Shown here: positions 16,013 through 49,774 of the stretch, one piece after another
Numbering within the stretch: the first letter of the stretch is position 1
How the letters are laid out: each line of letters begins with the position of its first letter
NCBI GenBank assembly: GCA_029260315.1
Contig: JAJDDM010000033.1
Location: 1 to 64,000, forward strand
Length of the DNA: 64,000 nt
Reading direction: 5' to 3'
Source of the DNA: Phycisphaerales bacterium
GTDB lineage: Bacteria; Planctomycetota; Phycisphaerae; Phycisphaerales; UBA1924
The notes under the pieces: generated by a model
Database searches by the model: none
What the model was told of the DNA's origin: nothing
What the model saw: only the letters and a program-made list of their open reading frames with translations
Translations under genes and position numbers: made by a program

Positions 16013-16169
16013 CGCCGCCGCACGCATTCGTGACCTTGGCTCGATCTGTAGCCGGACGGTTGGCCGTACCAGGCCAACATGGGGAACGACCTGCCTCAAA
16101 ATCGCCTGCGAGAGGGGCTGATCGCGACTGGCACGGCGTTCGCACAGGTGGCGTCCAAGGAGATTGCAC

Positions 16170-17519
16170 ATGCGCCATGACCAGAATGATCCGAGCTTTC
16201 TAGACCATCTCGAGCCTCGCAAGTTGCTCTCGGCCAGTCTGGACGGCGGCGGATCCCTCGAAATCCACGGGACCGCCGGCGACGACGCCATCGTCGTCGA
16301 GGCGACCGACATCGACGGGCAGGTCCGCGTCAGCGGCGTCGAGAGCGTCGAGGACGGGTCGATCTTCGACGGTGTGCGGCGCATCCGCGTCCGACTCGGG
16401 CAGGGCGACGACGGAGCGAGCTTCGTCGGCAGCTTCACCAACGAGCGCGGGCGGGTCATGCCCATCCGCGTGTTCGGCAACGCCGGCGACGACGACATCG
16501 ACGGCGGCGACGCCCGCAACCGCATCATCGGCGGGGGCGGCGACGACGTGCTCGACGGCGGCGCGCGGGCCGATGTGATCCGCGGGCGGGCCGGCGACGA
16601 CGTGATCCACGGCAACGGCGGGCCGGACAGGCTGCGAGGCGACGCCGGGCGCGACACCATCAATGGCAACGACGGCAACGACCGCCTCAAGGGCGGGCGC
16701 GGCGACGACGCGCTGTACGGCGACGACGGACGCGATCGGCTCGCGGGTGGTGCCGGAACGGACATGCTGCGCGGCGGCGCCGGCGACGACTGGCTCAACG
16801 GCAACGCCGGGAGCGACGATCTCTACGGCGACGACGGCTCGGACGACTTCCGCGGACGCCGCGATGAGTCTCGCGACGACGACGACAGCGACCGGCACGG
16901 CTCCGACGACGACGGCACCGATGACCGCGGCGGCGGCAACGACGATGATGGCACCGATGATCGCGGTGGTGGTAATGACGACGATGGCACCGATGACCGC
17001 GGCGGCGACGACGGTGAGCACGTCGGGTTCGACGACGACTTCGTCTTCCTCCTCCGTCAGATCGAGACTAACCTCGGTGCGCTGCCTCAGGAGATGATCG
17101 ACCTGGTCAACGCGGCACACGAGCTGAACGCGGTCGCCGGGCCGGCGATGCACCGGGCCGACAACGCCATCAAGGATCTGTTCACCGACGACCGGTTGGA
17201 GTTCCTGGTGAACGACGACCCGCCGGAGGACGCCGGGGACGCGATCGCCGAGGCCCTCGAACGGCTGTTCGGCGGCGATGACGGCGTCCGCGACTTCGAT
17301 CGCGACGGCGACCTGCTGGACTTCGACGATGTCGTCACCAGCTACGACATCCTGCTCGGCGAGCTGACCGAGGACCAGGGACGCACGCTGCGGGCCGCCC
17401 GCGACGCCCTGGCGGCGAACGAGGCTCGGAGCGACGCGGTCGAGGCCGCCTTCGAGCGACTGCTCGCGGCGGATCTGAGCGACGCGTTCTGGAGCACGGT
17501 GCGCACTTCCGTCCGTTGA
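16170..17519 (+). CDS. LEPR-XLL surface protein with hemolysin-type calcium-binding repeats
   Basis: 449 residues. Residues near 10-21 read [11 protein letters not shown], the LEPR-XLL motif found at the N-terminus of planctomycete surface proteins. About residues 105-230 are RTX-like nonapeptide repeats ([43 protein letters not shown]) that form a calcium-binding beta roll. Then a 12-residue unit [12 protein letters not shown] is repeated three times at DNA level (16905-17009). The C-terminal 150 residues are helical and unfamiliar. ATG 16170 is chosen because AAGGAG ends 7 bases upstream; a TTG at 16164 is also in frame. Secreted or surface role inferred. Confidence 0.85.
16905..17009 (+). 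repeat. 36-base in-frame tandem repeat in the RTX-type gene
   Basis: Three units of 36 bases, each starting GACGA(C/T)GA(C/T)GGCACCGAT, encode [12 protein letters not shown]; the last is shortened. Copies differ mostly at third codon positions, so the array is not freshly amplified. It adds a highly acidic linker between the calcium-binding repeats and the C-terminal region. Confidence 0.85.
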
Positions 17520-18201: not shown

Positions 18202-19509
18202 GTGCTGACGCGCTTCTGCCTGTACGGCTTCCTGAAGAACCAGCGGTACTTCGAGCCGGTGTTCATCCTGGCCTTGCTCGACAAGGGCTTGGGGTTCGGG
18301 CTGATCGGGGTGCTGTTCGGCTTCCGCGAGCTGATCGTGGCGGTGCTGGAGATCCCGTCGGGGGCCGCGGCGGACGTGCTGGGTCGGCGCGGGTCATTGG
18401 TGCTGGCGACGGGGGCGTACATCGTGAGCTTCGCGGTGTTCGCGCTCGCCGAGCCGGTGTGGATGCTGTTTCTGGCGATGGCGTGCTACGGCGTGGGCGA
18501 GGCGTTCCGATCGGGAACCCACAAAGCGCTGATCTTCCGGTGGCTGGAGATCGAGGGCAGGACGCGCGAGAAGACGCGGGTGTACGGGCTGACCCGCTCG
18601 TGGAGCAAGTACGGCTCGGCCCTCGCGGTCGTGATGACCGGACTTCTGCTCGGGGCAACCACCAGCTACGAGGTGGTGTTCGCGGCGACGATCGTGCCGT
18701 ATGCGCTGCTGTTGGTCAATCTCCTGACCTATCCCAGGGCGCTGGAAGCATCGCCCGCTCGCGATGTGGAGAAAGCGAAAGGGGAGCCGGGTGCGGAACA
18801 TCTCGACGATGGCGCGGCAGAATCGCCTCGGGCGAAGGAGCGATCGCTGCGACAGGTCTGGCGGCACACGCTCGACACGCTCAAGCTCTCGCTCCGTCGG
18901 CGGGCGCTGCGGCGGCTCATCGTGAGCTCGATGGGTTTCGACGGGATGTTCCACGCGGCGAAGGACTATCTCCAGCCCGTGCTGGCGGCGATCGCGCTGT
19001 CGATGCTGGCGTCAAGGCCGATGGAGGACGAGCAGGCGGTCGCCGCGGTTCTGACGCCGGTGTATGTCGGGTTGTATGTGCTCGCGGGGCTTGCGAGCCG
19101 GTGGAGCCATCGGTTCAGCGCGTGGGCGGGGGGCGAGCGGCAAGGGATGGCTCGGTTGTGGGTGGCGTTCGGGGTGTGCTTCGGTGTGGTGTTGTTGCCG
19201 GTGCCGGTGGCGGTCGCCGGGGCGTTCGTGGCGCTGCACGCGATCCAGAATCTGTGGCGGCCGATGCTGATCGCGCGGTTCGATGATGAAGGGGAGGAGG
19301 CGAGAGGGGCGACGATTCTGTCGATCGAGAGCCAGGCGCGGCATCTGGCGACGATGGTGCTGGCGCCGGCGATCGGGTTTGCGGTGCAGGCGGTGAGTGC
19401 GTCGCCGGAGAGGGTGGAGGTGTGGCCGATTGGGGTGGTTGGGGTGATGGTTGCGGTGGTAGCCTTTTCCCGAGTTGATCTCGAAGGAACGAGTGAAGGA
19501 AACTCGTAG
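18202..19509 (+). CDS. MFS-type transporter
   Basis: 435 residues with around 11-12 hydrophobic segments. The loop after the second segment reads SGAAADVLGRRGSLV, the MFS loop 2-3 signature (GxxxDxxGRRxxL). A long hydrophilic central loop (about residues 190-235, EKAKGEPGAEHLDDGAAES) separates the two halves. Start is GTG 18202. Substrate cannot be guessed; it could be an exporter. It may be cotranscribed with the UPF0316 gene. Codon use in the 3' part becomes very G-rich (GGGGTGGTTGGGGTG), as elsewhere in this genome. Confidence 0.87.
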   Translation: MLTRFCLYGFLKNQRYFEPVFILALLDKGLGFGLIGVLFGFRELIVAVLEIPSGAAADVLGRRGSLVLATGAYIVSFAVFALAEPVWMLFLAMACYGVGEAFRSGTHKALIFRWLEIEGRTREKTRVYGLTRSWSKYGSALAVVMTGLLLGATTSYEVVFAATIVPYALLLVNLLTYPRALEASPARDVEKAKGEPGAEHLDDGAAESPRAKERSLRQVWRHTLDTLKLSLRRRALRRLIVSSMGFDGMFHAAKDYLQPVLAAIALSMLASRPMEDEQAVAAVLTPVYVGLYVLAGLASRWSHRFSAWAGGERQGMARLWVAFGVCFGVVLLPVPVAVAGAFVALHAIQNLWRPMLIARFDDEGEEARGATILSIESQARHLATMVLAPAIGFAVQAVSASPERVEVWPIGVVGVMVAVVAFSRVDLEGTSEGNS

Positions 19510-19539
19510 GCTTTGAGTCGCGGTGTTCTACGATCCCAG

Positions 19540-21795
19540 GTGCCGACCATTCCCGATCGCTTCCGTCTCACCAGCCGCTACCACCCCACCGGCGATCAGC
19601 CCACCGCCATCGAGGCGCTCATCGACCGACTGGACACCCGCTCCGAGCCCTACGCGACGCTGCTGGGAGCGACGGGGACGGGTAAGACGTTCACGATGGC
19701 CAACGTCATCGCCCGCCTCAACAAGCCGACGCTGATCATCAGCCACAACAAGACGCTCGCGGCCCAGCTCTACGAGGAGCTCAAGGAGTTCTTTCCGGAG
19801 AACGCCGTCAGCTACTTCGTGAGCTACTACGACTACTACCAGCCCGAGGCGTACATCCCCGGCAGGGACATCTACATCGAGAAAGACGCGAGTAGGAACG
19901 ATGATCTGGATCAGTTGCGGCTCGCCGCGACGAGCAACCTGCTGAGTCGGCGGGACACGATCGTTGTGGCGAGCGTTTCCTGTATCTTCGGCTTGGGGTC
20001 GCCCGAGGCGTACGGGGAGAAGCGGCTGCCGATCATCCGCGGCGTCGAGATCGACCGGCGCCAGTTCTTTTTGGCGCTGAGCGCGATGCAGTATCAGCGC
20101 AGCGATATCGAGTTCCGGCGGGGGACCTTCCGCGCCCGCGGCGACGCGATCGACATCTGGCCCGCCTACGAGCGATTCGCCGTCCACGTCGAACTGTTCG
20201 GCGACGAGATCGAGCGGATCGACCTGATCAACCCGACCAGCGGCGAGGTGCTCGCCGAGGAGAAGCATTTCAATCTGTTTCCCGCGGTTCACTACGTCAC
20301 GCCCGAGCAGATCCTCGAGCAGGCGATCGCGAATATCAGGGCTGAACTCGAGGAGCGGGTCGCGGTGCTTCGGGGCGAGGGAAAGCTGCTGGAGGCCCAA
20401 CGCCTGCTCGCCCGCACGAAGTATGACCTGGAGATGCTGGAGGAGGTCGGGACGTGCCCCGGCGTTGAGAACTACTCGCGGTATTTCGACGAGCGCCAGC
20501 CGGGGGAGGCGCCGTTTACGCTGCTGGATTACTTTGATTACGCGCCGGGTAGATCGGCTCTCCGAGCCGATGCGTTGGATGACCGCGGCGAAGTGAACGT
20601 GGATGGTGATGCGGACGACCTGCATATCGGCTCGGAGAGCCGATCTACGCAGGAGAGCCGACCTACCCGCACGAACAAGGACGACTGGCTCTGCATCATC
20701 GACGAGAGCCATGTGACCATGCCGCAGATCCAGGCGATGTTCAATGGCGACCAGGCGCGCAAGCGGGTGCTGGTGGAGCACGGATTCCGGCTGCCGAGCG
20801 CGCTGGACAATCGCCCGTTGCGCTTCGAGGAGTTTGAGGAGGTGGTGCCGCGGCTGCTGTTCGTGAGCGCCACGCCGGGGCCATACGAGCTGAAGAAGAC
20901 CCAGGGCGAGGTCGCCGAGCAGGTGATCCGCCCGACGGGACTGCTGGATCCGGAGATCAGCGTGCGCCCCGCGCAGGGGCAGGTGCCGGATTTGCTGGAA
21001 GCCTGCCAGGAGCGGGTTGCCCGCAACGAGCGTGTGCTCATCACGGCCCTGACCAAGCGGCTGTGCGAGGATCTGACGAACTATCTCGACAAAGCCGGGC
21101 TGCGGGTGCGGTATCTGCACAGCGAGATCGACACGCTCGAGCGGATCGAGATCCTGACCGATCTGCGCGCGGGCGACTTTGACGTGCTCGTCGGCGTGAA
21201 TCTGCTGCGTGAGGGGCTGGACCTGCCAGAGGTCAGCCTTGTCTGCGTGCTGGATGCCGACAAGGAGGGGTTCCTGCGCAGCGGCACAAGCCTGATCCAG
21301 ACCATGGGGCGCGCGGCACGCAACGCCAACAGCCTCGTCATTCTCTACGCCGACAAGATGACCCCCGCCATGCAGAAAGCGATTGACGAAACCGATCGCA
21401 GGCGGGCCAAGCAGATCGCCTACAACGAGGCCCACGGCATTATCCCCCAGACGATCGTCAAGCCGATCCGTCGCGGTATCGAGACCGAGCTCAAGGCGAG
21501 ACGCATGGCCCGCGAGGCGCTCCAGGACGCCGAGGAAGCCTTCGAGGCGGGCCAGCTCGTCCAGACGTTGGAGGAGGAGATGCTGCGGGCCGCCGAGCAG
21601 TTGCAGTTCGAGAAGGCCGCGGATCTGCGGGATCAAGCGAACGCGCTCAAGAAGCTCATCGAAGAGGCCGGGGAGGACGCGACGATCACGCGGGCCGAGC
21701 TGAGCGAGATCCTCGGCGGCAAGGCCCGCAAATCGCGCCCGGGCATGGCCGGGACCAAGGCCAAGAAGAAGCGCCGCCCCGCGAAGAAGCGATAA
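19540..21795 (+). CDS. uvrB: UvrABC system protein B, with a repeat-derived insertion
   Basis: 751 residues from GTG 19540, giving MPTIPDRFRLTSRYHPTGDQ, equivalent to the start of E. coli UvrB; an in-frame TTG at 19513 is the other option. DNA-damage verification helicase-like subunit of nucleotide-excision repair. Seen: Walker A GATGTGKT (43-50), YFVSYYDYYQPEAY beta-hairpin, DESH (388-391), DNRPLRFEEFE, VNLLREGLDLPEVS, MGRAARN, and the C-terminal UVR motif LQFEKAADLRDQANALKKLI. Odd: about 45 extra residues at 336-380, between FTLLDYFDYAPG and WLCIIDESH, encoded by a palindromic repeat (20549-20666). The frame and all motifs are intact, so it is probably functional. Confidence 0.96.
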   Translation: MPTIPDRFRLTSRYHPTGDQPTAIEALIDRLDTRSEPYATLLGATGTGKTFTMANVIARLNKPTLIISHNKTLAAQLYEELKEFFPENAVSYFVSYYDYYQPEAYIPGRDIYIEKDASRNDDLDQLRLAATSNLLSRRDTIVVASVSCIFGLGSPEAYGEKRLPIIRGVEIDRRQFFLALSAMQYQRSDIEFRRGTFRARGDAIDIWPAYERFAVHVELFGDEIERIDLINPTSGEVLAEEKHFNLFPAVHYVTPEQILEQAIANIRAELEERVAVLRGEGKLLEAQRLLARTKYDLEMLEEVGTCPGVENYSRYFDERQPGEAPFTLLDYFDYAPGRSALRADALDDRGEVNVDGDADDLHIGSESRSTQESRPTRTNKDDWLCIIDESHVTMPQIQAMFNGDQARKRVLVEHGFRLPSALDNRPLRFEEFEEVVPRLLFVSATPGPYELKKTQGEVAEQVIRPTGLLDPEISVRPAQGQVPDLLEACQERVARNERVLITALTKRLCEDLTNYLDKAGLRVRYLHSEIDTLERIEILTDLRAGDFDVLVGVNLLREGLDLPEVSLVCVLDADKEGFLRSGTSLIQTMGRAARNANSLVILYADKMTPAMQKAIDETDRRRAKQIAYNEAHGIIPQTIVKPIRRGIETELKARRMAREALQDAEEAFEAGQLVQTLEEEMLRAAEQLQFEKAADLRDQANALKKLIEEAGEDATITRAELSEILGGKARKSRPGMAGTKAKKKRRPAKKR
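20549..20666. repeat. Palindromic repeat inserted in frame in uvrB
   Basis: Left arm 20549-20571 (begins GTAGATCGGCTCTCCGAGCC) and right arm 20626-20648 are perfect 23-base reverse complements, 54 bases apart. A third, partial arm GAGAGCCGACCTAC lies at 20653-20666. Each arm is itself nearly palindromic (GGCTC-TCC-GAGCC). The element keeps the uvrB frame and encodes GRSALRADALDD ... SESRSTQESRPTRTN. Related copies are at 24755-24824 (uvrA) and, half only, at 49022-49047 (dipeptidase). Confidence 0.92.
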
Positions 21796-21806
21796 CGGAA
21801 TCTCAC

Positions 21807-21925
21807 CACGGAGACATGGAGACACAGAGACTGACAGCACGCCGGAAACTGTGGGATTGCCGCGCAATGATCCAACCGGCGTCTGACTCGCCTTTCTGAT
21901 TTCTCGGTGTCTCGGTGGTGAATCA
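21807..21925. repeat. Imperfect inverted repeat between uvrB and the small membrane ORF
   Basis: TCACCACGGAGACATGGAGA at 21807-21826 is matched in inverted orientation by TCTCGGTGTCTCGGTGGTGA at 21902-21921 (approximate ends). Such CACCACGGAGACAC...GTGTCTCGGTGGTG units look like a dispersed intergenic element. No conserved protein is encoded between the arms. The rest of 21796-22343 has the small frame described next and otherwise no gene that I can see. Confidence 0.55.
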
Positions 21926-22148
21926 TCTTTTCGGTAATCAGTTGACCAGACCTTCGCCCCAACCCGCGCCCCGCTCCGGACTCGCCCGTCGATTCGGCGC
22001 ATACTTCCTCGGCCTCGCCATCGGCCTGATCCTGCTCGGCCTGTTCCAGTCCCAACGCGCGCAGCGGGCAAGCCGGGAATCCAAGGATGAACAGACCAGC
22101 GGCGCGAACGATGCGCCGGAGCCGCGGCGAGCCGACGAAGATCGCTAG
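21915..22148 (+). CDS. Possible small single-span membrane protein
   Basis: Up to 77 residues from GTG 21915, or 68 from TTG 21942. The first residues are encoded by the inverted-repeat arm, so the later start may be right. One clear membrane segment (FGAYFLGLAIGLILLGLFQ) is preceded by Pro/Arg-rich sequence and followed by a strongly charged tail (SQRAQRASRESKDEQTS ... EPRRADEDR). No family recognised, no clear ribosome binding site. The hydrophobic/charged pattern supports a real small protein but only moderately. Confidence 0.45.
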   Translation: MVNHLFGNQLTRPSPQPAPRSGLARRFGAYFLGLAIGLILLGLFQSQRAQRASRESKDEQTSGANDAPEPRRADEDR

Positions 22149-22343
22149 ACCCCGATGGATCCCTTGGGATTGCGCGCCCGCAACCGCCCTCCGCGACGCC
22201 GGCGTGACACCGCTGCGAAAACTCACGGATGGTCGGTGTGTCGGCGTCGTTGCGATATGCTGATGGCAAGCGGAAGGCGGTCGCGGCGTGGTCGCGGTGC
22301 CCCGTGAGTTCGGAACAACCAGGGGGGATCAAGGAGATCGCAA

Positions 22344-24116
22344 ATGCGCCCCATTTATCCGTCCGTGCTCGCTCTGAGCCTCGTGTCCGCCCATGGCCTC
22401 GCACAACCGCTCTCGTTTGATCTGATCGCCTTCGTCGGGCAGGACGCCGCGGACATCGGCAACGGCGTCGTCTACCGATTCCTCATCGACGCCGACATCA
22501 ACGATGCGGGCGGCGTCGCCTGGCGCGCCGGGCTCGGCGGTCCCGGCGTCGATGAGAACAACGACGGCGCGCACTACGTCGCACTCCTCGGCGCTCCCAG
22601 CCGGTTACTCGCGCGGGACAACGCCCAGGCCGATGGCCTGCCCCAGGGGGTGCGCTACCAGGGCCTGTGCTACGAATGCAGCATCGGACCGATCGCCGGC
22701 CCCCGCATCGCCAGCGACGGCGACGCCGCCTTCATGAACCTGCTCACCGGTGACGGCTTCGCCTTCGGGCAGACCGGCGTGTTCACGCGATCCGTCGGCC
22801 AGACGCCGCGCCCGCTGATCGTCAGCGGGGACGACGCCTTCGGCCTGCCCGACGGGCTCGATATCTTCAGCGTGGAAGTCCCCATTGTCGACAGATCGGG
22901 TGCGATCGCCGTCTCGGTGCTTGCGCGAATCAACAACGCACAGCTGCCGCAAGGGACCGCGGTGTACCAGGGCGACGCCGAATCGCTGCGCTACGTCGCA
23001 GGCGCCGGCGACGACGCCGTTGGCTTCGACCCGGGCCACATCATCTGGGACGTCCTCCCGGTCGGGCTGACCGGCGAGGGGGCGGTGACGATGCGCGCGA
23101 CCGTCCGCGACCCCGACGACCCGTTCAGCAACGAGCAGGCCGTCTATCGCGAGGTGGACGGCGCGATCGAGCTCGCCGCGGCGACCGGCGAGCAGGCGCC
23201 CGCCATGGATCCCGGCGTCGTGTGGCGATGGTTCAGCGTCACCCCGCCCAATGCGTCCGGGCGCATCGCGCTGCTGGGAGACGTGGAGGGCGACGACATC
23301 GACTTCCCCGAGAACAGCGGCGTGATCATCTCCGACATCACCGGCGACTACCGCAAGCTCGCCCAGGCGGGCGATCAGGTGCCGGGGCTGCCCGACGGCG
23401 AGACCTACCGCCAGCTCTTCACACCCTCGCTCAACGACGCCGCCCAGTACGCCTTCCGCGCCACGACCGAGATCCTCGGCGCCCAGGCGAACGACGTGAT
23501 CGTGTCGAACATACTGGGCGAGCCGCGCGCCGTCGTCGTGACGGGCGGGCAGGTCGGAGACGTGCCCGTCGGCGAGGTCTTCATCTCGATCTTCGACTCC
23601 TCAGACATCAACCGGCGAGGGCAGATCGCGTTCAGCGCCCGGACCTCGCGCGATCCGCAGGGCTTCGGCCTCTTTCTCGCCGAACCAAACGGACTCACCC
23701 GTCCGCTGATCCGAAAGGGCGACCACATCGAGATCGCCCTCAGGGATTTTCGCGAGGTCGAGAGCTTCGGCGGCGGCCTCCACGGGAACCCCATGCTGAC
23801 CGACTCGGGCCTGCTGGCCATCAAGATCTTCTTCACCGATGGCACGCAGGGCCTCTTTCGTGCCCGGGTCAACTGCCGGGCCGACCTCACCGGCTCGTCC
23901 GACCCCAACGCGCCGGACTTCGGCGTGCCCGACGGCCAGATCGACGCCGAAGATTTCTTCTTCTTCCTCGACGCGTTCGCGAGCTTCAACTTCGAGGTCG
24001 CCGACCTGACGGCCTCCGGCGATCCGGGAGACCCGCTGTACGGGGCGCTCGACGGCGTGCTCTCGGCGGATGATTTCTTCTTCTTCCTCGATCGCTTTGC
24101 CGAGGGATGCCCCTGA
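22344..24116 (+). CDS. Exported GC-type dockerin surface protein
   Basis: 590 residues. Signal peptide MRPIYPSVLALSLVSAHGLAQ. The main body resembles planctomycete beta-rich repeat proteins in which segments like INDAGGVAWRAGL, SDGDAAFMNLL, NASGRIALLGDV, LNDAAQYAFRA and INRRGQIAFSA recur (choice-of-anchor tandem NxxG type). The C-terminal 80 residues carry two dockerin-like calcium loops with identical hydrophobic cores, IDAEDFFFFLDAFA and LSADDFFFFLDRFA, and end in a conserved Cys (EGCP). This C-terminal form is typical of Phycisphaerae and is probably a surface-anchoring or sorting tag. AAGGAGA lies upstream of the ATG. It splits uvrB from uvrA. Confidence 0.87.
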   Translation: MRPIYPSVLALSLVSAHGLAQPLSFDLIAFVGQDAADIGNGVVYRFLIDADINDAGGVAWRAGLGGPGVDENNDGAHYVALLGAPSRLLARDNAQADGLPQGVRYQGLCYECSIGPIAGPRIASDGDAAFMNLLTGDGFAFGQTGVFTRSVGQTPRPLIVSGDDAFGLPDGLDIFSVEVPIVDRSGAIAVSVLARINNAQLPQGTAVYQGDAESLRYVAGAGDDAVGFDPGHIIWDVLPVGLTGEGAVTMRATVRDPDDPFSNEQAVYREVDGAIELAAATGEQAPAMDPGVVWRWFSVTPPNASGRIALLGDVEGDDIDFPENSGVIISDITGDYRKLAQAGDQVPGLPDGETYRQLFTPSLNDAAQYAFRATTEILGAQANDVIVSNILGEPRAVVVTGGQVGDVPVGEVFISIFDSSDINRRGQIAFSARTSRDPQGFGLFLAEPNGLTRPLIRKGDHIEIALRDFREVESFGGGLHGNPMLTDSGLLAIKIFFTDGTQGLFRARVNCRADLTGSSDPNAPDFGVPDGQIDAEDFFFFLDAFASFNFEVADLTASGDPGDPLYGALDGVLSADDFFFFLDRFAEGCP

Positions 24117-24183
24117 TCGACCCCCTGGCGCCGTCCCGGGCATCTGACAGGACCCTACCATCGAACCCGATGGAGGAGGTCAG

Positions 24184-27100
24184 ATGCCCAGGGATGGAGT
24201 CGGCGTGATCGAGCCAAAGCCGCGCAAGAAGCGCACGAAAAAGGCGCCGAGCCCGGCGTCGCCGACGCGAGGCGTGTCCAAGCCGTCCGCCAACGAGCGG
24301 GTTATCCGGGTCCGCGGCGCCAAGGAGCACAATCTCAAGAACGTCGATCTGACGCTGCCGCGGGATCGGCTGATCGTGATGACGGGGCTCTCCGGCTCGG
24401 GTAAGAGCAGCCTGGCATTCGACACGATCTTCGCCGAGGGGCAGCGGAAGTACATGGAGAGTCTCTCCGCGTACGCGCGCCAGTTCTTGGACCAGATCAA
24501 GAAGCCCGACGTCGAAGAAGTCGAGGGCATCCCCCCCACCATCGCGATCGAGCAGCGATCCAGCGCGCACAATCCCCGGTCGACCGTGGCGACGACGACG
24601 GAGATCTACGACTACCTTCGCCTGCTCTACGCCCGCTGCGGCACGGCGTACTCGTGGGCGCCGAAGAAGACCAAGAAGGACGGCACGATCACCGAACGCC
24701 GGGGCGTGCCGATCACCGCCTCCAGCGCCACGCAGATCGTCGACGCGATCATGAGTAGATCGGCTCTCCGGGCCGATTCGGCGGCGACCGACGCACAACG
24801 CATCGATTCAGAGAATCGATCTACCCGGATGATGATCCTCGCCCCGGTCGTGCGCACAAAGAAGGGTTTTCACAAGGACACGCTCGAGAGCCTGCAATCC
24901 CAGGGCTGGGGTCGCGCCCGCGTCAACGGCGAGATCATCGAGCTGCGCGAGGCGCTCAAGGAGGGCGGCGAGAACCCGCTCAATCTGGGCCGCCACCACA
25001 AGCACGACATCGAGGCCGTGATCGACCGCATCGTCCTCAAGGACACCGTCCGCCAGCGCCTGAGCGAGGCGATCGAGAGCGCGCTCAAGATCGGCGAAGG
25101 TTCGGTGATCGTTTCGGTTCAACCCGGTGGCACGGGCGTCCCGCCCGTGCGAGGAGAGTCGTCCGATTCGGGGATCGCGCACGGGCGGGACGCCCGTGCC
25201 ACTGGGAAAGATGCTTCCCCCTGGACCGACAACTCATTCTCCGACCGCCTCGCCGATCCCGAGCATCCCGAGTACGCCATCAGCGAGCTCGCCCCGCGTC
25301 TGTTCAGCTTCAACAGCCCGCACGGGGCCTGCCCGACCTGCCACGGCCTCGGCGCAATCCTCGAGTTCGACGAAGAGCTGGTCATCCCCGACGAGGAGAA
25401 GACCCTCCAGGGCAGCGCCATCGCCCCCTGGAAGAAGAACGGCCCCGGCGGCATGATCTACCCGCGCATGCTGAGGCGATACTGCCGGGCCTCGGGGCTC
25501 AGCCCCGCGACGCCCATCGCCGAGATGCACGAGGACGACTACGACGCGCTGATGCACGGCGATCCCGACTCCAAGTGGTCCGGCGTGCTGCCCATGCTGC
25601 GCGCCTGGTTCGACAAGACCGAGAGCACCTGGGTCAAGGACCACCTGCACCAGTTCATGGCCGAGCACACCTGCCCGGAGTGCCTGGGCGACCGCCTGCG
25701 GATCGAGGCGCTGCATGTGCAACTCGAGTCTGATCGGGCGGCCCAGACCGACGGCGCGATGAGCAGCGTCGTCATCGGCCGCCCGACCCAGAACGGCACA
25801 ATGCTCAACATCTCCGAGCTGAGCCGCCTGACGATCACCGACGCCATCCGCTTCATCGAGGGGCTGAAACTCACCAGCGAGCAGCAGCACATCGCAGAGC
25901 CCATCCTCCGCGAGGTCGCCAATCGACTGCGCTTCCTGACAAGCGTCGGGCTCGACTATCTCAGCCTCGACCGGCGCACCAGCACCCTCTCCGGCGGCGA
26001 GGCCCAGCGTATCCGCCTGGCAACACAGGTCGGCTCCGGCCTCGTCGGCGCGTGCTACGTCCTCGACGAGCCGACCATCGGCCTGCACCCGCGCGACAAC
26101 ACCCGACTCATCGCCACCCTCCGCCACCTCACCGACATCGGCAACACCGTCCTCGTCGTCGAGCACGACGAGGAGATGATCCGGGCCGCGGATCACGTCG
26201 TGGACATCGGCCCCGGCGCGGGCGTGCATGGCGGGCGCATTGTCGCCCAGGGCACGATCGACGACGTCGCCGCGGAGCCCGAATCGCTCACCGGCGACTA
26301 CCTCGCCGATCGCCGGCGGATCGAAATCCCCGAGTATCGGCGCAAGCTCAGCGAGAGAAAGGCGATCACGCTCAAGGGCGCCAAGGCCAACAACCTCAAG
26401 TCCATCGACGCCTCGTTCCCGCTCGGCGGCATGCTCTGCGTCACCGGGGTCTCCGGCTCGGGCAAGAGCACGCTCGTCAACGAGATCCTCCTCAAGGTGC
26501 TCAAGAAGAAGCTGCTCGGCACGCGCGTCGTCCCCGGCGAGCACACCCGCCTCAACGGCTCGCAACACGTTGACCGCGTCATCGAGGTCGACCAGTCGCC
26601 CATCGGGCGCACGCCGAGATCCAACCCCGCGACCTACACCGGCATCTTCGACGAGATCCGCAAGCTCTTCAGCCAGACCAAGGAAGCCAAGATCCGGGCG
26701 TACAAGCCCGGGCGCTTCAGCTTCAACGTCAGCGCCCAGAACGGCGGCGGGCGCTGCGAGGCCTGCCAGGGCCAGGGGCTCAAGAAGATCGAGATGCACT
26801 TCCTCGCCGATGTGTTCGTGGAGTGCGAGGTCTGCCGGGGCAAGCGCTACAACCGCGAGACGCTCGAGGTGCTGTATCGCGGCAAGTCGATCGCCGACGT
26901 GCTCGATATGACAATCGAGAAGGCCTGCGGATTCTTCGAGAACCACCCCAAGGTCCTGCGCTTCTGCGAGTGCCTGCGCGACGTCGGCCTCGGCTATGTC
27001 ACGCTCGGCCAACCCTCGACCACGCTCTCCGGCGGCGAGGCCCAGCGCGTCAAGCTCGCGACCGAGCTCGGCAAGGGCGGCGGCACCAAGAACAACCCCA

Positions 27101-27387
27101 CCGGCTACACCAACATCCTCTACGTCCTCGACGAGCCCACCACCGGTCTGCACTTCGAGGACGTCCGCAAGCTGCTCACCGTCCTCACCCGCCTCGTCGA
27201 ATCCGGCAACACCGTCCTGCTCATCGAGCACAACCTCGACGTGATCAAATGTGCCGACTGGATCATCGATCTGGGGCCGGAGGGCGGGGAGAAGGGCGGG
27301 ATGATCGTCGCCCAGGGGCCGCCGGAGAAGATCGCGAAGAGCAAGAAGGGGTACACGGCGGAGTTCTTGAAGCGAGTGCTCTGCTGA
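24184..27387 (+). CDS. uvrA: UvrABC system protein A, with two repeat-derived insertions
   Basis: 1067 residues, against about 940 in E. coli. Damage-recognition ATPase of nucleotide-excision repair. Walker A motifs GLSGSGKSS (68-76) and GVSGSGKST (about 756-764), signature LSGGEAQRIRLATQVG and LSGGEAQRVKLATELG, Walker B YVLDEPTIGLH and YVLDEPTTGLH. The C-terminal zinc finger is intact (GGGRCEACQGQG from Cys858 ... CEVCRGKRYNRETL). Odd: residues about 191-214 (SRSALRAD ... SENRST) and 315-340 (GGTGVPPV ... GRDARAT) are encoded by palindromic repeats, and the first zinc finger keeps only C383PTC386. A good GGAGG precedes the ATG. A basic N-terminal extension (KPRKKRTKKAPSP) is also unusual. 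Confidence 0.96.
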   Translation: MPRDGVGVIEPKPRKKRTKKAPSPASPTRGVSKPSANERVIRVRGAKEHNLKNVDLTLPRDRLIVMTGLSGSGKSSLAFDTIFAEGQRKYMESLSAYARQFLDQIKKPDVEEVEGIPPTIAIEQRSSAHNPRSTVATTTEIYDYLRLLYARCGTAYSWAPKKTKKDGTITERRGVPITASSATQIVDAIMSRSALRADSAATDAQRIDSENRSTRMMILAPVVRTKKGFHKDTLESLQSQGWGRARVNGEIIELREALKEGGENPLNLGRHHKHDIEAVIDRIVLKDTVRQRLSEAIESALKIGEGSVIVSVQPGGTGVPPVRGESSDSGIAHGRDARATGKDASPWTDNSFSDRLADPEHPEYAISELAPRLFSFNSPHGACPTCHGLGAILEFDEELVIPDEEKTLQGSAIAPWKKNGPGGMIYPRMLRRYCRASGLSPATPIAEMHEDDYDALMHGDPDSKWSGVLPMLRAWFDKTESTWVKDHLHQFMAEHTCPECLGDRLRIEALHVQLESDRAAQTDGAMSSVVIGRPTQNGTMLNISELSRLTITDAIRFIEGLKLTSEQQHIAEPILREVANRLRFLTSVGLDYLSLDRRTSTLSGGEAQRIRLATQVGSGLVGACYVLDEPTIGLHPRDNTRLIATLRHLTDIGNTVLVVEHDEEMIRAADHVVDIGPGAGVHGGRIVAQGTIDDVAAEPESLTGDYLADRRRIEIPEYRRKLSERKAITLKGAKANNLKSIDASFPLGGMLCVTGVSGSGKSTLVNEILLKVLKKKLLGTRVVPGEHTRLNGSQHVDRVIEVDQSPIGRTPRSNPATYTGIFDEIRKLFSQTKEAKIRAYKPGRFSFNVSAQNGGGRCEACQGQGLKKIEMHFLADVFVECEVCRGKRYNRETLEVLYRGKSIADVLDMTIEKACGFFENHPKVLRFCECLRDVGLGYVTLGQPSTTLSGGEAQRVKLATELGKGGGTKNNPTGYTNILYVLDEPTTGLHFEDVRKLLTVLTRLVESGNTVLLIEHNLDVIKCADWIIDLGPEGGEKGGMIVAQGPPEKIAKSKKGYTAEFLKRVLC
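24755..24824. repeat. Palindromic repeat inserted in frame in uvrA (same family as in uvrB)
   Basis: Left arm 24755-24776 differs from the uvrB arm by one base over 22 (GGGCC for GAGCC). Right arm 24802-24824 (ends GAATCGATCTAC) is a variant of the uvrB right arm with G-C to A-T changes that keep its own internal palindrome (ATCGATTC-AGA-GAATCGAT). The 25 bases between are unrelated to the uvrB spacer. The reading frame across the left arm is the same as in uvrB (SRSALRAD). Confidence 0.88.
25128..25201. repeat. GGTGVPPV/GRDARAT palindromic repeat in uvrA
   Basis: Arms 25128-25150 (begins TGGCACGGGCGTCCCGCCCG) and 25179-25201 are perfect 23-base reverse complements with a 28-base spacer; each arm is itself palindromic (CACGGGCG-TCC-CGCCCGTG). 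In frame it encodes GTGVPPVRGESSDSGIAHGRDARAT. I recall peptides of the GGTGVPPV...GRDARAT kind as scattered products of such repeats in other bacterial genomes, but could not check. Confidence 0.9.
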
Positions 27388-48473: not shown

Positions 48474-48706
48474 GGGCGGGTCCTTGGAAACGGAGCATAG
48501 GAGGCCATGGCGCGAGCCTGGGCTGGTTGGGCGCTTGATGCGAAGGGAGTGGGTGGTAGGAGGTGTAGGAAAGCCCAGGCTTGCGCTATAGGGCCTCCAT
48601 GTGTGCAGCGTTCGTGCGGGCGCGTTGAGTGGTGTCGAAGTTGCGATCGCGTGGCCTTCGTCGCAAGGCCTCCTCAGACCACGGCACCGGCGGTTATCCT
48701 CGGTCT

Positions 48707-49774
48707 ATGCCCATTTTCGACGCCCATCTCGATCTTGCGTTTCTGGCCGAGACCGGGCGGGACATGCACGCGCCCTTGGAAACCTGCCGGGGGCGGTATC
48801 AACCGGCGGGGGTGACGCTTCAGAGCCTGCGCGAGGGCGGGGTGACGCACTGTCTGGGCACGATCTTCACCGAGGCGATCGATCCGAGCGATCGCGAGAG
48901 CGAGGACGGGGCGTGGGCGTATCCGATGGGCGACGCCGAGGCGGCGCATGTTTGTGGGTTGCGGCAGTTGAAGCTGTATCAGGCGTGGGCGAGCGCGGGG
49001 GTTATCGCATTGATGCCTCGGGTAGATCGGCTCTCCGAGCCGATGCGCCGTCCAATCCACGACAGCGAGCGCATCCAACTCGGCATCCTCATGGAGTGCG
49101 CGGATCCGATTCGGGGGCCCGAGGAAGTGGAGTTCTGGGCCGAGGGTGGGGTGATCGCGGTCGGCCTGGCGTGGTGGCGGCAGGGGCGGTACGCCGGGGG
49201 GAATGGGACAAATGCGAGTGATTCGAAGGCAGGGCTGACGGGGATGGGGCGCGGGCTCGTGGCGGAGTTGGACCGGCACGGAGTCGTCCATGATCTATCG
49301 CACCTGTCGCAGCGGGCGACCGATGACCTATTGGAGGCGACCGATGCGGTGGTGATGGCGAGTCACTCGAACTGCCGGGCGCTGCTGGGGGGCGAGGGCA
49401 ATCCGGAGTGGCAGCGGCATCTGAGTGATGAGACGATCCGCGAGATCACGCGGCGCGGCGGGGTGATCGGGCTCAACCTGATCCGGAACTTCATCAAGAC
49501 GGGGCTCGATCGCAAGGATCCGAACGACCGCCCTTCGATCGACGATTGCGTCGCGCATGTCGAGCATGTGTGCGAGATCGCGGGAGATCGGTGGTGCGTG
49601 GGGTTGGGCAGCGATATGGATGGTGGCGTTCCGACGACGGAGATGGCGGCGGGGATCGATTCGCCGGGGGATTTTTCGAAGTTGGGGGAGGCGCTGGCGC
49701 AGAAGGGGTGGTCGGATGGAGATGTGGAGGGGTTCTTGTTTGGGAACTGGGGGAGGTTTTGGGGGAGCGATTGA
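48707..49774 (+). CDS. Membrane-dipeptidase-like peptidase, family M19
   Basis: 355 residues, TIM-barrel zinc dipeptidase. Ligands: HxD in FDAHLDLAF, Glu in ILMECADPI, His in VHDLSHLS and in MASHSNCRALL; WCVGLGSDMDGG gives the C-terminal Asp. No signal peptide, so cytoplasmic. Odd: residues about 106-114 (DRLSEPMRR) are encoded by half of the palindromic repeat found in uvrA/uvrB, in a different frame. ATG 48707 is chosen at MPIFDAHLD. Probably cleaves dipeptides, perhaps D-Ala-containing. Confidence 0.9.
   Translation: MPIFDAHLDLAFLAETGRDMHAPLETCRGRYQPAGVTLQSLREGGVTHCLGTIFTEAIDPSDRESEDGAWAYPMGDAEAAHVCGLRQLKLYQAWASAGVIALMPRVDRLSEPMRRPIHDSERIQLGILMECADPIRGPEEVEFWAEGGVIAVGLAWWRQGRYAGGNGTNASDSKAGLTGMGRGLVAELDRHGVVHDLSHLSQRATDDLLEATDAVVMASHSNCRALLGGEGNPEWQRHLSDETIREITRRGGVIGLNLIRNFIKTGLDRKDPNDRPSIDDCVAHVEHVCEIAGDRWCVGLGSDMDGGVPTTEMAAGIDSPGDFSKLGEALAQKGWSDGDVEGFLFGNWGRFWGSD
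49022..49047. repeat. Half palindromic element inside the M19 peptidase gene
   Basis: 26 bases beginning GTAGATCGGCTCTCCGAGCC are identical to the left arm of the uvrB element plus three following bases (GCG). No right arm is found within the next 150 bases. The reading frame differs from that in uvrA and uvrB, giving VDRLSEPMR instead of RSALRADA. Confidence 0.85.

Follow-up and report, generated by a model that had tools for sequence, protein, structure and literature searches.

The uvrB gene of a member of the Phycisphaerales (Planctomycetota; contig JAJDDM010000033.1 of assembly GCA_029260315.1) carries a palindromic insert in frame. The window, that is, the whole stretch of DNA analysed, comprises positions 1 to 64,000 of this contig, and the genome it comes from (G000) is a 4.18-Mb draft of 195 contigs, 92% complete and the one genome of its species analysed. 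By its sequence, the insert is a pair of repetitive extragenic palindromic (REP) units, similar to a REPIN, followed by a truncated third arm. It is very likely that this pair is a non-autonomous element, probably moved by a REP-associated tyrosine transposase (RAYT), that settled in a disordered linker of UvrB, and that its likely cognate RAYT is the one nested in leuS of the same genome. In what follows, genomes, contigs and loci are designated by the letters G, C and L.

The uvrB insert is an inverted REP pair

The initial annotation had described perfect 23-base inverted arms plus a partial third arm in frame within uvrB, and all three arms were found:

19540..21795, + strand: uvrB (Pfam UvrB_inter, Helicase_C, UvrB and UVR; start codon uncertain, frame open from 19510)
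20549..20571, + strand: REP arm 1, GTAG tag and hairpin ATCGGCTC-TCC-GAGCCGAT, read as (G)RSALRAD
20572..20625, + strand: in-frame spacer separating arms 1 and 2
20626..20648, − strand: REP arm 2, identical to arm 1 in inverted orientation; its peptide reads IGSESRST
20652..20666, − strand: truncated third arm, GGAGAGCCGACCTAC (reverse complement GTAGGTCGGCTCTCC)

The insert is located between LDYFDYAP and DDWLCIIDESH, and the uvrB frame stays open across it, encoding the peptide GRSALRADALDDRGEVNVDGDADDLHIGSESRSTQESRPTR. Both complete REPs are inverted and head-to-head, with the tags outside. When the GTAG REP of uvrB was folded, the GTAG remained unpaired and was followed by an 8-bp DNA hairpin with a TCC loop (hairpin z −3.75), and the whole pair gave a fold z of −9.5. 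The tag and stem start of the truncated third arm match the GTAGGTCGG variant found in other genera of the family. The 21-base arm core was detected four times in the window with up to 3 mismatches, compared to 0.00 expected from 100 shuffles of the window.

The REP is dispersed and frequently intragenic

A search of the genome for the uvrB arm, as the initial annotation had proposed, revealed 139 arms with up to 3 mismatches in 4.18 Mb, 87 of them exact, whereas the reversed-pattern control gave 0. The REP is therefore dispersed and present at high copy number. These copies support the earlier suggestion that the palindrome is mobile or amplifiable, was inserted in frame and is comparable to the Rickettsia palindromic elements (RPEs) but of another sequence, the mobility itself being probable.

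The arrangement of the arms was followed in the window and 56 further stretches (450 kb), where 133 arms with up to 4 mismatches fell into 69 clusters. Among neighbouring arms of opposite orientation with starts no more than 400 bp apart, 29 pairs had their tags outside versus only 2 inside, plus one overlapping match, so the head-to-head orientation predominates. In 11 arms (set A3), which were hand-picked as hairpins and are thus biased toward pairing, seven of the eight stem pairs change on both sides and 98.9% of the cells are paired, compared to at most 36.4% in slid controls; among these sequences, the REP hairpin stems coevolve.

By a crude coding score, 44 of the 69 clusters were in long coding frames, compared to 215 of 311 random intervals from the same stretches (P 0.39). 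The uvrB-type REP is not visibly depleted from genes in this genome, and a mainly extragenic location, as expected of GTAG REPs, does not apply to it. The codon-usage score used to choose the host frames misfiled gltX (−0.10), which was recovered by reading its frame. None of 40 forward arms uses the TAG frame, a consequence of picking open frames that is no evidence alone. A rough binomial estimate of enrichment in synthetases (20 of 3500 genes; 45 or 37 clusters) had assumed inputs and favours recognisable genes, and was not relied on.

Twenty-six recognised proteins contain an element, as judged from Pfam coordinates read by eye plus one frame: UvrB, UvrA, an M19 dipeptidase, two aconitases, a RimO-like protein, PurL, ClpB, DnaE, Acs, a DUF58 protein, a pyridine-nucleotide oxidoreductase, CarB, PSD1, LeuRS, an aldehyde dehydrogenase, a pseudouridine synthase, Fpg, SerRS, an ABC-F-like protein, a carboxyltransferase, AlaRS, RlmN, UppP, ProRS and GltX (the DUF58 and oxidoreductase entries were inferred, as the family matched in two stretches). 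The REP is present in at least five aminoacyl-tRNA synthetases. In a second genus (G070), whose variant is GTAGGTCGGCTC, the same coding score was passed by 14 of the 18 clusters examined; this sample covered 14 stretches around 26 of 51 matches, with hosts assigned by reading only.

A RAYT nested in leuS is the likely partner of the uvrB REP

Eleven Y1_Tnp matches were found in the genome. Three of them exceeded the cut-off of 80 bits of the NCBIfam model REP_Tyr_transpos (NF047646), which was taken as the criterion for a RAYT; the other eight were below it, two of these being over the IS200 cut-off. The three RAYTs are:

L038 / L063 4132-7671 (G000:C80:13131-16670): RAYT nested in leuS, in frame and without a stop of its own, in a frame of 1180 residues
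L095 1-1104 (G000:C136): RAYT in frame in an rdgB-like NTP pyrophosphatase gene cut by the contig edge (96.3 bits)
L094 3201-4097 (G000:C18): free-standing RAYT (101.4 bits), surrounded by a 22-nt inverted repeat unrelated to the uvrB REP

The leuS-nested RAYT scored 86.9 bits within a leuS_bact match of 978 bits, and it keeps both the HVH form of the HUH motif and the catalytic Tyr. Exact inverted copies of the uvrB REP are present on both sides of it, associating the REP with a RAYT gene, and one more exact REP is found downstream in the same gene. It is the only RAYT of this genome flanked by the uvrB REP, the one in the rdgB-like gene being flanked by inverted hairpins of another sequence. 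The nested leuS was also the only strong LeuRS editing-domain match in the genome, with one weak match (20.6 bits) in another frame of 1208 aa. In a congener (G001), the leuS site is empty and reads YWM-DGG-VDLYIGG. A RAYT lying between REP copies is the usual sign of a cognate pair (Di Nocera et al., 2013; PMC3733652), and the likely cognate RAYT of the uvrB REP would be the leuS-nested one.

The uvrB REP could instead have been moved by the C18 RAYT or by some enzyme that the draft lacks, the leuS copy being a passive, REP-flanked fossil. The C18 RAYT does exceed the curated cut-off as a gene of its own, and the genome is 92% complete. However, C18 carries a different inverted repeat, no uvrB REP arm was found with up to 6 mismatches in the 7-kb stretch around its RAYT, and it is the leuS RAYT that retains HVH and Tyr between exact REP copies. 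We regard this second origin as rather unlikely.

The REP pair lies in a linker that was already variable

The distance from LDYF to DESH is 63 residues in this UvrB. For comparison, 80 named UvrB loci were fetched, and 25 were left out as they gave no match to the regular expression; of the remaining 55 with the motif, 54 have a distance of 16 residues and one has 22. A set of 34 of the 80 named loci (A2) was kept after 39 had been tried and five dropped for stops. In relatives, the same distance ranges from 26 to 81 residues (34 loci, one gene counted twice), the value of 81 belonging to the congener G001, which has hairpins of its own. As the linker of the relatives is already expanded and variable, the REP pair appears to have fallen into a pre-existing variable linker. 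Therefore, the insert first reported as roughly 45 extra residues is real, but only about 40 codons correspond to the palindrome, which does not account for the entire excess over other bacteria.

An insert present in all relatives and without copies elsewhere in the genome would have pointed to ordinary evolution of a variable loop, with a family-typical linker that is palindromic by chance. The expanded linker in all 34 relative loci examined fits such an origin. However, the exact 23-base arm occurs 87 times in the genome and is present in unrelated genes, and the linker of one congener (G002) has no REP, whereas that of G001 contains two tandem copies of a different hairpin, GTGG-CACAGCTC-TCC-GAGCTGTG. 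Loop evolution, which we hold to be highly improbable as the source of the insert, is refuted for the palindrome itself and still holds for the linker that received it.

Other simple repeats appear to be building blocks of the UvrB linkers of some relatives (L183, L186 and L187).

In an AlphaFold model (35 sequences; mean predicted local distance difference test score, pLDDT, of 81), the insert, residues 336-378, had pLDDT below 50, whereas the adjoining blocks were at 90 or above, and the model matches solved UvrB structures. The insert region is thus predicted to be disordered.

Other host proteins have loops that look like recurrent landing sites. In gltX, REP pairs occupy the loop from DEGP to DPRGVGP in G000, G070 and G023, as well as in G034 by coordinates, and G028 has a pair of a different hairpin there. 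Strict scanning of this loop detected none in 12 other relatives, and looser settings flagged weak hairpins in two of these. By reading, SerRS shows the same insertion spot in G000 and G070, and a kbl-like gene has a REP pair in G070 at the position where G062 has an entire RAYT.

RAYTs are nested in frame in host genes of related genomes

The best matches to the leuS-nested RAYT, 30 loci in 30 genomes, were taken as the set of relatives. In 29 of them the RAYT is nested in frame in a host gene, and in one it is free-standing. The hosts are valS (14), the editing-domain site of leuS (9), the YIGG site of leuS (2), rdgB (2), miaA (1) and a kbl-like gene (1), as called by NCBIfam for 15 loci, through L063 for L228 and by reading of the flanks for the other 13. 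Matching inverted hairpins flank all 30 RAYTs, as in REPtrons, most of these hairpins differing between genomes; unlike the free-standing transposase with its own stop of a REPtron, 29 of the 30 continue in frame into the host gene. By position, six of the 29 host frames (L228, L234, L236, L238, L246 and L255) end at the stop of the host gene, and 21, L229 among them, run to the edge of the fetched locus, whereas L245 and L254 end early.

HVH and Tyr were each found in 29 of the 30 loci. When 15 relatives were scanned with REP_Tyr_transpos, 11 exceeded 80 bits and four were below it (76.1, 77.8, 77.1 and 70.5). The ratio of nonsynonymous to synonymous divergence (dN/dS) was 0.12-0.20 in six of seven RAYT pairs and undefined in the seventh, with dS near saturation. 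Set A1 comprised 20 of the 30 RAYTs. As an internal control among the listed matches, frames of at least 365 aa were found in 42 of 48 with an E value of 1e-19 or better versus 3 of 77 weaker ones.

On the RAYT tree, the host labels require 9 changes, the least possible being 6 and the mean of shuffled labels 14.4, and valS is occupied by two distant clades. Within one genus, the RAYT is in miaA in G004, where no RAYT was seen in leuS, and in leuS in G076. The clustering of host labels, the two valS clades and the split between miaA and leuS together suggest that nested RAYTs seem to have been both inherited and re-inserted.

These data also bear on whether the nested RAYTs, instead of being parasites, have been domesticated as domains that serve the synthetases, for example by regulating charging or editing. 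A valS insertion common to three families (f1, f4 and f6), the clustering of the host labels and the purifying selection on the RAYTs are in favour of domestication. In contrast, the same valS loop is held by two distant RAYT clades, leuS has two sites, and miaA, kbl and rdgB are hosts as well; inverted REPs are still around all 30 RAYTs, the leuS of one congener is empty, and what has been kept are the catalytic residues of a transposase, beyond the fold alone. Domestication is accordingly judged unlikely, though it keeps some weight.

Removal of the insertions at the RNA or protein level, as introns or inteins, leaving normal mature proteins, has no positive evidence, although it would account for their tolerance in essential-type genes. 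Group I intron RNA, expected for an IStron, gave no Rfam match at the gathering score in leuS (L063 3900-7943) or in the window from 19400 to 25400, and the hits listed for the scanned frames of leuS, valS, miaA, kbl and rdgB included no intein splicing domain. The stop-free linkers on either side of 29 RAYTs suggest read-through translation, and removal is very unlikely. An assembly artefact, in which repeats join unrelated contigs, is conceivable in a 195-contig draft, as repeats are prone to misassembly; it is hardly credible, since the arms are just 23 bp and the same arrangement is present in 29 separate assemblies, including G068 and G135, which are listed as single contigs.

Across the phylum, 60 of 392 genomes gave a match at an E value of 1e-25 or better. 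Eight long frames with a more distant RAYT match were scanned in other genomes (L275, L279, L283, L284, L286, L287, L289 and L264), and five of the matches were over the cut-off. These eight matches are inside or beside alaS, purH, a salicylyl-CoA hydroxylase gene and DNA methylase genes of the BREX/Eco57I, DUF1156 and N6/N4 types, chance long frames being possible in GC-rich DNA. Free-standing RAYTs are also present in the phylum (L268, L269 and L273).

Proposed mechanism

We propose that the RAYT would recognise the GTAG tag and the hairpin of the REP, and that the REP pair would be moved by it as single-stranded DNA. The pair would then have entered a UvrB linker that was disordered and variable beforehand, and its stop-free frame would encode about 40 residues tolerated there; insertions would more generally survive by landing in tolerant loops. 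Being in frame and without its own stop, the leuS RAYT would be produced within the synthetase chain, and the fused protein may be made whole and be functional.

Several points weigh against this proposal. The species is represented by one genome, and the mobility of the element, the binding and cleavage of the REP by the RAYT and the function of the fused synthetase are deduced from sequence. No RAYT match was found in the congeners G001 and G002, whose genomes are 70% and 87% complete, and the free-standing C18 RAYT could act in trans. Catalytic residues have been lost in two of the 30 RAYTs (HVL in L250; Ser for Tyr in L252), and dS is near saturation. Finally, in three of the 29 cases the host gene seems to be interrupted at another place. 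The leuS of G010 has an upstream TAA, owing to which the L229 frame starts late, and the valS of G047 (L254) shows a frame change. In the valS of G039 (L245 2620-2682), a stop directly follows a GTGGCACGGGCG-type REP-like hairpin and the valS homology continues in the same frame, so this gene may have been disrupted or truncated by a REP.

For the lineage as a whole, the balance of the data tips slightly toward a RAYT-REP system that is partly an open-frame transposon: stop-free, located in tolerant loops of core proteins, mainly aminoacyl-tRNA synthetases, and translated through. The transposase would be a domain of a protein that can hardly be lost, and the REPs would spread in frame, as in uvrB, uvrA, dnaE, gltX and serS.

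Relation to known elements

Intragenic GTAG REPs have been known since 2013, including those in uvrA of Thioalkalivibrio and Opitutus terrae (Di Nocera et al., PMC3733652), and that paper also counts repeats in uvrB of R. conorii with the CGTC/RPE repeats. The uvrB insert is therefore not new in kind. Since Table 1 of PMC3733652 includes intragenic units among the features of GTAG families, a genic location marks a variant and does not exclude membership. The REPs described here resemble the GTAG REPs of that paper in the tag, the hairpin, the predominance of head-to-head dimers, the genic location and the presence in uvrA and other repair genes; its text covers PVC bacteria and reports dimer or group inserts encoding 20-30 residues. 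In contrast to those GTAG REPs, which are mostly intergenic there, the present ones are not visibly depleted from genes. In the transposase section of PMC3733652, REPs are said to flank or overlap RAYT genes, and there is no mention of a RAYT in frame within another gene, as found here. In a passage of PMC6006769, a few 'unexpectedly long' Y1 proteins were discarded as gene fusions or annotation errors.

Like REPtrons and their RAYTs (TnpA-REP, NF047646), the loci of this lineage have a transposase with HUH and Tyr between inverted REPs; unlike them, the RAYT has no stop of its own and is in frame in leuS, valS, rdgB, miaA or a kbl-like gene. In REPINs, as reportedly described by Bertels and Rainey in 2011, an inverted pair of REPs and a RAYT together make up a mobile unit. 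The elements found here share the inverted pair and the link to a RAYT, with variable spacers, a genic location and a RAYT nested in a host gene. Rickettsia palindromic elements are likewise palindromes in many genes, set apart by host and tag. PMC3733652 identifies RPE-4 and RPE-6 with the repeats found inside genes of R. conorii, and it found CGTC repeats not to be associated with transposase genes.

In inteins with homing endonucleases, a mobile enzyme is likewise in frame within an essential gene. Unlike inteins, the nested RAYTs had no splicing domain among their hits, are flanked by hairpins and would be expected to use HUH transposition chemistry. No report of RAYTs nested in frame in synthetases was found in the open-access literature (preprints and most subscription journals were outside the scope), so whereas the uvrB insert by itself is of a known kind, the nesting is without precedent in that search.

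Other repeats in the window

The initial annotation had named the uvrB copy only; the window also contains pairs in uvrA and one unpaired arm within the gene for an M19 dipeptidase:

24184..27387, + strand: uvrA, with two different REP pairs in frame
24755..24777, + strand: REP arm in uvrA (RSALRAD), in frame, one stem mismatch
24802..24824, − strand: second REP arm in uvrA, GTAGATCGATTC-TCT-GAATCGAT, stem altered on both sides
25127..25149, + strand: second REP-like family in uvrA, GTGG-CACGGGCG-TCC-CGCCCGTG, in frame
25180..25202, − strand: matching inverted arm of this second family in uvrA, reading HGRDARAT
49022..49044, + strand: single REP (VDRLSEP), in frame in the M19 dipeptidase gene (48629-49774)

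The GTGG-CACGGGCG-TCC-CGCCCGTG family has 34 arms genome-wide with up to 2 mismatches, and the valS-nested RAYTs of G071 and G039 are flanked by the same GTGG-CACGGGCG hairpin as that of uvrA at 25127-25202.

Two further repeats were observed in the window: a short repeat-like stretch after uvrB (CACCACGGAGACATGGAGACA and a near-inverse, 21800-21930), and a frame rich in GGxGxD-type repeats (16164-17519) with a tandem repeat of 11 protein letters.

Significance

If the proposal is true, residence in frame in an essential-type gene would be a route by which a selfish element persists, with its expression guaranteed, hard to delete and without splicing. The unusual peptides GTGVPPV...HGRDARAT and RSALRAD...IGSESRST, seen in proteins of this group, could also be traced to such REPs. 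The lineage would provide a ready system for studying how mobile DNA creates new protein segments, with the UvrB linker as an example, what makes genes of translation and repair repeated targets, and whether an active transposase can be accommodated in a synthetase.

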